DNA from: Echinicola marina
GTDB taxonomy: Bacteria; Bacteroidota; Bacteroidia; Cytophagales; Cyclobacteriaceae
Reading direction: 5' to 3'
NCBI RefSeq assembly: GCF_020463795.1
Contig: NZ_CP080025.1
Location: forward strand, 4,585,501-4,649,500
Length of the DNA stretch: 64,000 nt
Shown here: piece after piece, positions 14,580-15,490 of the stretch
How the letters are laid out: each line of letters begins with the position of its first letter
Position numbering within the stretch: position 1 is the stretch's first letter
Translations under genes and position numbers: made by a program
Notes under the pieces: generated by a model
Database searches by the model: none
What the model was told of the DNA's origin: nothing
What the model saw: the letters and a program-made list of their open reading frames with translations, nothing else

Positions 14580-14751
14580 AACTTTAAAATTTTATTCGAT
14601 AAAAAGTTAACATTTTTCACCTCTAGGGCTTGCATTTAATCAGATAACCCTACATATTTGCATTCCCATTCAGCAAGGAGTTGGCAGTTAACCAAAGCCA
14701 AATATAATACTCTAGTTGATCTGGAGGCTCAAAAGAGAGTCTATTTTATCT

Positions 14752-14825
14752 GGCGAGGTAGCTCAGTTGGTTAGAGCGCAGGATTCATAACCCTGAGGTC
14801 ACGGGTTCAACTCCCGTCCTCGCTA
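14752..14825 (+). tRNA. tRNA-Met (anticodon CAT), elongator type
   Basis: A full cloverleaf is seen: acceptor GGCGAGG with CCTCGCT, D arm GCTCAGTTGGTTAGAGC, anticodon loop TTCATAA giving anticodon CAT, and T arm ACGGGTTCAACTCCCGT. The first pair of the acceptor is a G-U wobble and not the unpaired first base of initiator tRNA, so the elongator form is likely. A CAT anticodon could also be the tRNA-Ile that is modified at C34; sequence alone leaves a small doubt. Confidence 0.9.
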
Positions 14826-14830
14826 CTCTT

Positions 14831-14858
14831 AGGCTTCCATTTTTGGGAGCCTTTTTTG
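14831..14858 (+). terminator. Terminator of tRNA-Met
   Basis: GGCTTCC (14832-14838) pairs with GGGAGCC (14845-14851) with one G-U pair and is followed by seven T residues. The segment CTTCCATTTTTGGGAGCC is repeated at 15222 downstream of the GIY-YIG gene. Confidence 0.85.
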
Positions 14859-14875
14859 TTTTTAATCTTTTTATC

Positions 14876-15139
14876 ATGGATGAACTTTTCACTGTTTATG
14901 TTTTATTCACTAAATCTTCTGGTAAAACTTATACTGGAATGACCTCAAACCTTACCTATAGGTTCCATTCACATAACACCTTTGCCAAAAAAGGTTTCAC
15001 TACTAGATACAGACCTTGGACAGTTATTCATACTGAAATCTTTTTCTCTAAACCAAAAGCCCTCCAAAGAGAAAAGGAACTTAAAACTGGTAATGGAAGA
15101 ATTTGGATCAAAACAAATATCCTACCCAAATATCTATAA
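14876..15139 (+). CDS. Small GIY-YIG nuclease-domain protein
   Basis: The 87-residue product is a single GIY-YIG domain of the UvrC/intron-endonuclease superfamily, with YVLFTK and KTYTGMTSNL in place of the two name motifs, an Arg in YRFHSHN and a Glu in REKELKTG at the catalytic positions. Start 14876 (MDELFTVYVLF) is preferred to an in-frame ATG at 14843, which lies inside the tRNA terminator. In Bacteroidota such small proteins are often called UvrC-like, but their function is unknown. It sits 18 bases past the terminator of tRNA-Met and inside a duplicated tRNA tail. Confidence 0.82.
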   Translation: MDELFTVYVLFTKSSGKTYTGMTSNLTYRFHSHNTFAKKGFTTRYRPWTVIHTEIFFSKPKALQREKELKTGNGRIWIKTNILPKYL

Positions 15140-15247
15140 ACTAAATCTTGCAATGGATTCTTATCCGCCTTAGCGGACCAGGGTTCAACTCCTTCCGATA
15201 ACTGTCGGAACTACAGATAACCTTCCATTTTAGGGAGCCTTTTTTAT

Positions 15248-15490
15248 ATATTTCACTTATTCAATCATGGAATAATTTTTTACCCTACAGTTTATTCGAC
15301 ACAGATCTTAACCTATTACTCAACCTCTATGAATAAATTAGAAGTACCAAGACAAATACTCTTAATATCTACACCTAAATTTGAAAGGAAGCCCCTCCCC
15401 CAATTTTTAATAAATATTTGTTCCGTGCTTTTTGTAATATAGTGAAATTTAAGAAATTGACCTGCCAGTAAACAAAAAATATTAACAAAC
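15248..15490. other. Intergenic, nothing recognised
   Basis: This AT-rich stretch separates the GIY-YIG cassette from the rplT terminator. A 62-codon minus-strand frame crosses it but starts within the terminator and has no family features. I see no RNA gene or repeat here. Confidence 0.5.

Follow-up and report, generated by a model that had tools for sequence, protein, structure and literature searches.

The window analyzed here is a stretch of 64,000 nt from Echinicola marina (NZ_CP080025.1, positions 4,585,501 to 4,649,500, forward strand). On its plus strand, the tRNA call placed an intact elongator tRNA-Met gene (anticodon CAT) at 14752–14826, followed by its terminator, read from the sequence, at 14832–14857 (terminator 1). 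In all six Echinicola genomes that were searched for it, a single intact elongator tRNA-Met gene was found per genome. The T run of terminator 1 lies 18 nt before the start of an ORF (14876–15139, plus strand) encoding a single-domain GIY-YIG nuclease of 87 aa with a pI of ~10.2 (PF01541, 54.7 bits versus a cutoff of 22.6).

Downstream of the ORF, and on the same strand, lies a second, broken tRNA-Met copy. Its left arm (15155–15163) is the anticodon strand GGATTCTTA, recognized by comparison with relatives as decayed from GGATTCATA, so the copy begins within the anticodon arm and not at the tRNA end. Palindrome 1, TCCGCCTTAGCGGA (15164–15177), begins at the point where nt 38 would come next, as expected from the rule observed in relatives, and replaces about 10 nt of the tRNA. 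The right arm, CCAGGGTTCAACTCC (15178–15192), corresponds to the 5′ strand of the T stem and the T loop, and palindrome 2, TTCCGATAACTGTCGGAA (15193–15210), judged from the sequence and from relatives, replaces the 3′ side of the T arm. Positions 15211–15245 hold what is left of the tRNA 3′ end (CTAC), together with terminator 2; this 35-nt block is 83% identical to 14823–14857, and its 24-nt core reaches 95.8% (E = 2.4e-7). Likewise, GGGTTCAACTCC is present at 14803–14814 and again at 15181–15192, a spacing of 378 bases, and the CTTCCATTTT..GGGAGCCTTTTTT block recurs at a spacing of 388 bases. The original prediction for this DNA had claimed that a T-arm 12-mer and a block reaching to the terminator were duplicated around the GIY-YIG gene and that two small hairpins lay at the downstream copy, and both claims were confirmed. 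It had further read the locus as an insertion into a tRNA end that left a partial duplicate; the duplicate stands, whereas the plain tRNA 3′ end does not, the copy being broken at a fixed base by a palindrome.

The encoded protein is the 87-residue single-domain GIY-YIG protein that had been predicted. Residues Y8, Y19, G21, R29, and E66 (window-protein numbering), which we take to be catalytic, were invariant in 10 of 10 alignment rows. The predicted fold (mean pLDDT of 88.1) was that of a bare GIY-YIG domain, with UPF0213 (1zg2, E = 2.8e-4) and Slx1 structures as the best matches and I-TevI as a weak one (E = 0.74). No domain beyond the nuclease was found in the 87 aa, and thus no separate DNA-binding domain. 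Homing endonucleases usually have such a domain for their long recognition site, a feature that is not strictly defining. A search for a phage origin gave no match among 50,697 phage records at an E value of 1e-3. Two relatives, with 43 and 39% identity, were present in viral contigs, and no tRNA was found in either fetched locus. Membership in the SegB family was not supported, as neither a sequence relation nor phage residence emerged from the phage-record search, in which SegB itself lay outside the comparison.

The five neighbors of the window locus are host genes (START-like, LptF/LptG, L20, L35, and IF3), and among them no integrase was found, in line with what had been claimed. A small island of the integrase type at a tRNA attachment site, its integrase since lost, would account for the duplicated tRNA tail. 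This explanation is highly improbable, because the integrase scan, which covered the window locus, met only ordinary host genes at these five places, and because the tRNA is broken within its body and not at an exact end repeat, with a palindrome at the break and in both polarities. A group I intron was also considered and rejected. In the Rfam search of window positions 14600–15400, the intact tRNA was the sole match above the family threshold and no group I intron was found, and the inserts in relatives are short palindromes, mostly of 14–16 nt.

GIY-YIG genes and their adjoining tRNAs

The window protein was searched against 59 genomes, its own included, and matches were obtained in 36. The 118 matches gave a first set of 116 GIY-YIG genes, with L005 dropped as a repeat of L003 and L077 giving no match; 92 loci were read, and about 21 of the lowest-ranked match places were left out. 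Also left out of the counts was L002 (G000:C1:414795-415016), where the GIY-YIG match lies inside a 922-codon open frame in a locus without a tRNA. A tRNA was present within 700 nt of 83 of the 116 genes, on the same strand in 83 of 83 cases, upstream of the gene in 63 and downstream in 20; for the other 33 family-level genes, no tRNA was found nearby. The nearest tRNA call was itself an interrupted copy for eight of the 83. Direct repeats across the gene (E < 1e-4) were detected for 85 of 114 GIY-YIG genes from the window genome and its relatives, whereas of 300 places picked at random in the window only one had such a repeat. The tRNA types beside family genes were Met, Val, Leu, Arg, Thr, Asp, Pro, Ser, Asn, Glu, and Ala.

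In a tree of 103 GIY-YIG proteins, the tRNA label changed 31 times, compared with a mean of 74.1 after shuffling, and none of 200 shuffles gave a value as low. Val, Leu, and Glu each formed a single group, three changes were counted for Met, and four for Arg and Pro. For this tree, 13 shortened or broken proteins were excluded, and L024 (SeC according to ARAGORN) and L069 were labeled by hand as Met and Val, respectively; many forks were unresolved both here (96 columns) and in the Met tree (85 columns). By this measure, the protein tree sorts by tRNA identity. Neighbor genes were common to many loci of a class, so part of the tRNA association is vertical, and this holds for much of it among the Met-class loci. 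Four loci of this class (L023, L025, L026, and L028) had no neighbor in common with the window locus, and L023, L025, and L028 lie at initiator tRNA genes.

The Met branch was also collected by protein alone. A profile of ten Met-branch proteins was run against genome contigs and found 489 relatives, from which 79 loci were kept, 77 of them distinct. Intragenomic spread in Niabella ginsengisoli (L200–L202) was ruled out, as the three share 99% identity over 3.5 to 4.2 kb and look like one locus assembled three times; two were dropped. The results showed that 68 of the 77 loci had a Met/fMet tRNA within 700 nt, on the same strand in all 68 and upstream of the gene in 67, with loci in Bacteroidota, Balneolota, Ignavibacteriota, and Chlorobiota. 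When the five loci from genomes already in the first set were subtracted, 63 of 72 remained beside a Met/fMet tRNA. The adjoining tRNAs comprised 28 initiators and 40 elongators, and a CAT-bearing Ile2-type tRNA was found at none of the 68 loci. CATAACC was present in 67 of the 68, the remaining one being a palindrome-bearing Met copy. As for the nine misses, seven start 40–338 nt from a contig end, and L172 and L218 have room but no tRNA; a TCCGCC joint was found near the gene in all nine. Parsimony on the Met tree counted seven switches between elongator and initiator hosts, of which the well-supported branches force one or two. Subfamilies of these GIY-YIG proteins adjoin particular tRNA isoacceptors on the same strand, and the Met/fMet subfamily does so across several phyla.

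A second GIY-YIG branch, mostly of 95–105 aa, accounts for 24 rows of the 103-protein tree, one of them near a tRNA. In 12 of the 24 rows (L036, L040, L041, L059, L062, L063, L067, L072, L082, L088, L092, and L096), a GTCATT/GAAGCAAT-type motif was present on both sides under a loose rule applied without a control, and long flanking repeats were seen around second-branch genes. This branch may mobilize the dispersed GTCATT/GAAGCAAT-type palindromic repeat.

Read by eye, the GIY-YIG frame of L070 seems to enter a tRNA-like tail, giving the C terminus VVEGSNPSGRT, and the frame of L101 overlaps a tRNA call; some annotated GIY-YIG C termini may thus be translated tRNA sequence.

The palindromic joint within tRNA copies

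The joint was called by a strict rule: the left arm had to span 7 nt or more, a hairpin with arms of 5 bp or more had to begin no farther than 2 nt away, and the right arm had to score 7 or more. Under this rule, a tRNA copy broken by a palindrome was found in 56 of the 67 testable Met-branch loci (54 in Bacteroidota, one in Balneolota, and one in Chlorobiota). Among 92 broken copies, the palindrome directly followed nt 37 in 91, exactly 10 nt were missing in 74, and the arms were TCCGCC/GGCGGA in 86. At random positions of the same loci, any such hairpin was met in 91 of 3450 tries and the TCCGC type in three. The loops of the palindromes vary and their arms are kept, and two single copies carry arm changes matched on both sides (TTCGCC/GGCGAA and TCCGTC/GACGGA). 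For the 11 loci that failed the strict rule, a looser listing gave a TCCGCC palindrome in L149, L157, L170, L185, and L208, a CCTGCC palindrome in L150, and a TACGCC palindrome in L159; no palindrome appeared in that listing for L164, L166, L169, and L212 (Ignavibacteriota).

In copies located 3′ of the gene, the median arm lengths are 10 nt (left) and 29 nt (right). Upstream copies in L158, L182, and L198 keep the promoter side and the tRNA start; the median length of the right arm is 14 nt in upstream copies. Broken copies are stacked five deep in L158 and six deep in L182. In Lunatimonas salinarum (G028; L024/L198), the elongator tRNA-Met copies of the array are palindrome interrupted, and no intact elongator tRNA-Met was found in the assembly with up to two mismatches allowed; the array contains an N gap and may be misassembled. 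A true absence of an intact copy from this species would require removal of the palindrome at the RNA level.

We also searched 395 genomes of the phylum by DNA alone with the joint pattern TCATATCCGCC N0-5 GGCGGA, a pattern from which the window's own copy has decayed too far to be detected. The pattern occurred at 29 sites in 16 of the 395 genomes, and the reversed pattern at none. Inspection by eye identified 28 of the 29 sites as tRNA-Met/fMet copies, L243 being the exception. A relative of the Met-branch protein was present in the fetched flank in 12 of the 16 genomes, and in the fetched flanks of the other four (G065, G107, G230, and G288), where the joint is present, no such relative was found.

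Joints were likewise found at other tRNAs. Counts per class are small, and a few rows of this listing (L048, L069, and L101) are false: ARAGORN had taken an interrupted copy for a tRNA, and the regular anticodon arm was scored as a palindrome. The joint follows nt 26 in Arg(CCT), with CCTGCC..GGCAGG and nothing missing (four genomes), and nt 9 in Thr, with 7 nt missing (three loci). It lies around nt 28–30 in Val and after nt 27 in Pro and Ala, with 17 missing (three loci), and in Pro also after nt 11–12. Some classes precede the intact tRNA and carry a duplicate of its 5′ portion instead. Overall, copies of ten tRNA types, some of them seen once, are interrupted by a small number of palindrome families (mostly TCCGCC, TCCCGA, and CCTGCC). 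The window itself holds a Thr-type remnant on the minus strand (2233–2338), in which the tRNA call gives an intact tRNA-Thr at 2233–2306 and the sequence gives an upstream 5′-end piece with palindrome ATCCCGATTGCTATCGGGAT at 2319–2338. No GIY-YIG gene was found at this remnant; similar Thr joints with a GIY-YIG gene are present in L089, L093, and L099.

In the wider stretch 2030–2345 of the window (minus strand), two tRNA-Thr genes were seen, one with a 5′-end piece and palindrome TCCCGATAGCAATCGGGA and the other with a more decayed trace upstream.

The possibility that these palindromes are an abundant repeat of the genome was tried and rejected. In the window's own genome, YCCCGA..TCGGGR occurred at 18 sites versus 12 for the reversed form, and TCCGC..GCGGA at 18 versus one. 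Among the 30 palindrome loci read (L117–L146), a tRNA lay within 350 nt of the site in L119, L120, and the window's own L145, and several of the own-genome sites look like terminator tips. In L133, L135, L137, L140, and L141, TCCGC..GCGGA forms the tips of terminator-like hairpins, and no tRNA was found there.

These counts bear on an alternative in which the palindrome, and not the tRNA, is the substrate. A structure-selective nuclease of the Slx1/UPF0213 kind would act on extruded hairpins, and the copies would arise through duplication with hairpin replacement, in a system resembling REP/RAYT with a nuclease in place of the transposase. The closest folds are indeed UPF0213 and Slx1, a few palindrome families interrupt copies of ten tRNA types (some in single cases), the rare arm changes, one copy each, are matched on both sides, and a different palindromic repeat often lies on either side of second-branch genes. 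We nevertheless regard this alternative as rather unlikely, because the TCCCGA-type and TCCGC-type palindromes are few in the genome of the window and a purely structural substrate leaves unexplained why protein branches track tRNA isoacceptors.

Another explanation places the system at the RNA level, with a tRNA anticodon nuclease whose RNA decoys or antitoxins would be the broken copies, much as in a type III toxin–antitoxin locus with its RNA repeats, terminator, and nuclease ORF. Isoacceptor specificity, the break at the anticodon, the tandem arrays of broken copies, and a terminator directly 5′ of the ORF would fit such a system. ARAGORN, moreover, calls the interrupted copies of L024, L048, L051, and L069 tRNAs, so that a tRNA-like fold is kept there; a whole tRNA fold is kept by some Val copies. 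A 2006 superfamily paper (PMC1564403) suggests, from a methyltransferase fusion, that a prokaryotic relative of Slx1 may have a role linked to RNA. In the Met set, however, a common RNA fold is not kept, because the upstream copies of L158 and L182 are without the 3′ acceptor strand and the downstream copies keep about 10 nt (median) of the 5′ half. In addition, the GIY-YIG enzymes known to us act on DNA, and one Echinicola genome, G005, has neither the gene nor the copies. An RNA-level system is, on balance, distinctly unlikely.

Cassette states among Echinicola genomes

The same site was read in 11 Echinicola genomes (G000–G010). G005 has the tRNA-Met and one terminator, without the GIY-YIG gene and without a second tail. 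The gene is intact in six genomes (G000, G001, G004, G006, G007, and G008), frameshifted in G009, and reduced to cassette remnants in G002, G003, and G010, so that it is absent or broken in five of the 11. Two tandem units of ~445 bp each were found in G004 and G006, with the second G004 gene broken. Because empty, intact, frameshifted, tandem, and remnant states were all found, the cassette comes and goes in this genus; within Echinicola, it can be absent, single, tandem, or decayed. The intact tRNA-Met of the carriers is identical to that of the empty-site G005, which counts against a homing reading as regards self-protection.

The original prediction had looked to relatives without the gene for a single tail and terminator, and the congener G005 has exactly that, so the prediction survives the refutation it had set for itself. 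It had also looked for relatives to adjoin a tRNA followed by that tRNA's 3′ end and had proposed a minimal element homing to tRNA 3′ ends. The tRNA link across phyla and the minimal, tRNA-tied GIY-YIG element held up; the 3′ end, whether as a constant companion or as the target, did not. Since the break lies inside the tRNA and some classes sit upstream and duplicate the 5′ part, the target is better called the tRNA gene body.

The inner hairpin of a GTCATTGCGA..GAAGCAATC repeat varies in 10 of the 11 Echinicola genomes, G005 not among them. The variants (TCCCGG..CCGGGA, TCCGCC..GGCGGA, and TTCCGAT..ATCGGAA) are like the palindromes that interrupt tRNA copies, and the repeat looks as if its hairpin tips had been swapped.

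Sequence divergence was compared between carriers. Between G004 and G006, the GIY-YIG gene differs by one synonymous change (dS 0.018), whereas dS reaches 1.26 in the START-like gene next to the tRNA and 0.74 in LptF/LptG, indicating that the gene spread horizontally between these two species in recent time. The unit is 98.5% identical over 334 nt versus 90.8% for the upstream flank, and G003, slightly farther from both genomes, has an older remnant only. The comparison covered 12 Echinicola pairs with the unit aligned over at least 300 nt; in the other 11, the identity of the unit differed from that of the upstream flank by −3.5 to +1.4 points, so horizontal spread is a single clear case. The dN/dS ratio (NG86) was 0.07–0.26 in 16 of 28 pairs, zero in one, and saturated or undefined in 11. 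In common with genes of free-standing homing endonucleases, this gene sits in neither an intron nor an intein, is present in some genomes and absent from others at a site that is otherwise conserved, and in one pair (G004/G006) has moved relative to its flanks.

These data also weigh on two further explanations. In one, the tRNA locus would simply have been duplicated in tandem, the gene being a neutral passenger and the palindromes later junk; this would fit the tandem units and the decay in Echinicola, where most pairs look vertical. It is improbable all the same, as the break base and the palindrome arms are identical across phyla, the search by joint only recovers the gene, and a neutral passenger sits poorly with the G004/G006 dS anomaly and the low dN/dS. 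The same low dN/dS, together with the constant strand and the short distance to the tRNA, with a median of 51 nt, would suit a domesticated host gene for the upkeep of tRNA genes or DNA repair, kept near tRNAs for coexpression. Its absence or breakage in five of 11 Echinicola genomes and its recent horizontal spread stand against that role, to which we give little probability.

Proposed mechanism and comparison with known systems

The cassette is made up of the tRNA's 3′ part with its terminator, the nuclease ORF, and another copy of the tRNA that a palindrome interrupts at a fixed base, and a whole tRNA is thereby retained. We consider that it is probably an intronless, free-standing cassette of the homing type, dedicated to one tRNA gene or isoacceptor. 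Several points speak against this reading: the protein is confined to the nuclease domain and has structure-selective enzymes among its best fold matches, much of the Met pattern is vertical, 11 of 67 loci fall outside the strict joint rule, and 33 of 116 family-level genes lie away from any tRNA. The nuclease would cut the uninterrupted tRNA gene near the break base, which for Met/fMet is the anticodon loop. Repair from a cassette-bearing locus, in another cell or in a tandem copy, would then copy the cassette in and rebuild the tRNA. Expression of the ORF would stay low, because it can be reached only by read-through of the tRNA terminator. The palindrome-bearing copy would most likely be the marked end of the cassette, a variant of the target that the nuclease would cut in another way or leave uncut.

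A broader proposal is more tentative and falls somewhat short of what we would call probable. These genes may represent very small mobile elements of Bacteroidota and sister phyla, each single-domain GIY-YIG family being devoted to one isoacceptor and moving by way of the palindrome-marked, fixed-base joint. The palindrome would then be a working part, either a recognition site or a hairpin intermediate, and the gene-less stacks would be nonautonomous derivatives.

If this holds, the cassettes would be among the smallest self-spreading ones known in bacterial chromosomes, with units of ~350–450 bp and one protein of 80–90 aa. They would exploit some of the most conserved DNA of the cell, with the damage kept small because a whole tRNA is left, and they would explain many of the small GIY-YIG genes and fragments resembling tRNAs that are found next to tRNAs in Bacteroidota. 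The related nucleases at different tRNAs form a natural series, in which specificity without a DNA-binding domain is open to comparison, and a nuclease family is linked to short palindromes.

In the literature searched, which covered few subscription papers, no description of a GIY-YIG/tRNA cassette in bacterial chromosomes was found, and we know of no counterpart to the palindromic tRNA joint or to the sorting by isoacceptor. Several known systems share single features with it. UPF0213- and Slx1-type proteins are alike in fold, and UPF0213 also in size; Slx1 is a structure-selective repair nuclease that acts with a partner, and to our knowledge nothing ties UPF0213 to tRNA genes. The E. coli tyrT distal repeats are tandem units behind a tRNA that repeat its 3′ end and encode a small protein. 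They resemble the present units in repeating a tRNA tail but have no nuclease, and we know of no palindromic joint in them. REP sequences with RAYT transposases link short palindromes to one small gene family, whereas here the nuclease is of another family and the palindrome lies inside tRNA copies. Free-standing homing nucleases have a like mode of life; the usual DNA-binding domain is missing here. A group I intron with a homing nuclease is a self-splicing intron in a tRNA, in contrast to the whole tRNA without an intron and the broken copy with a palindrome, mostly of 14–16 bp, found here. An intron-type tRNA system cited in PMC3984707 has the same kind of target.

The closest known system is phage SegB. 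The SegB protein is larger than the window protein. As described in two papers (PMC13096335 and PMC2988022), SegB of phages T4 and T6 is a free-standing GIY-YIG gene beside tRNA genes, as here, and forms tandem units of tRNA and nuclease by cleavage and recombination; the passages concerned mention no palindromic tRNA joint. One of the two, a review (PMC2988022), proposes that homing-nuclease genes of T4-like phages are held in check by terminators and RNA hairpins. SegB belongs to a phage genome, whereas the genes described here reside in bacterial chromosomes and their protein branches follow the tRNA isoacceptors.
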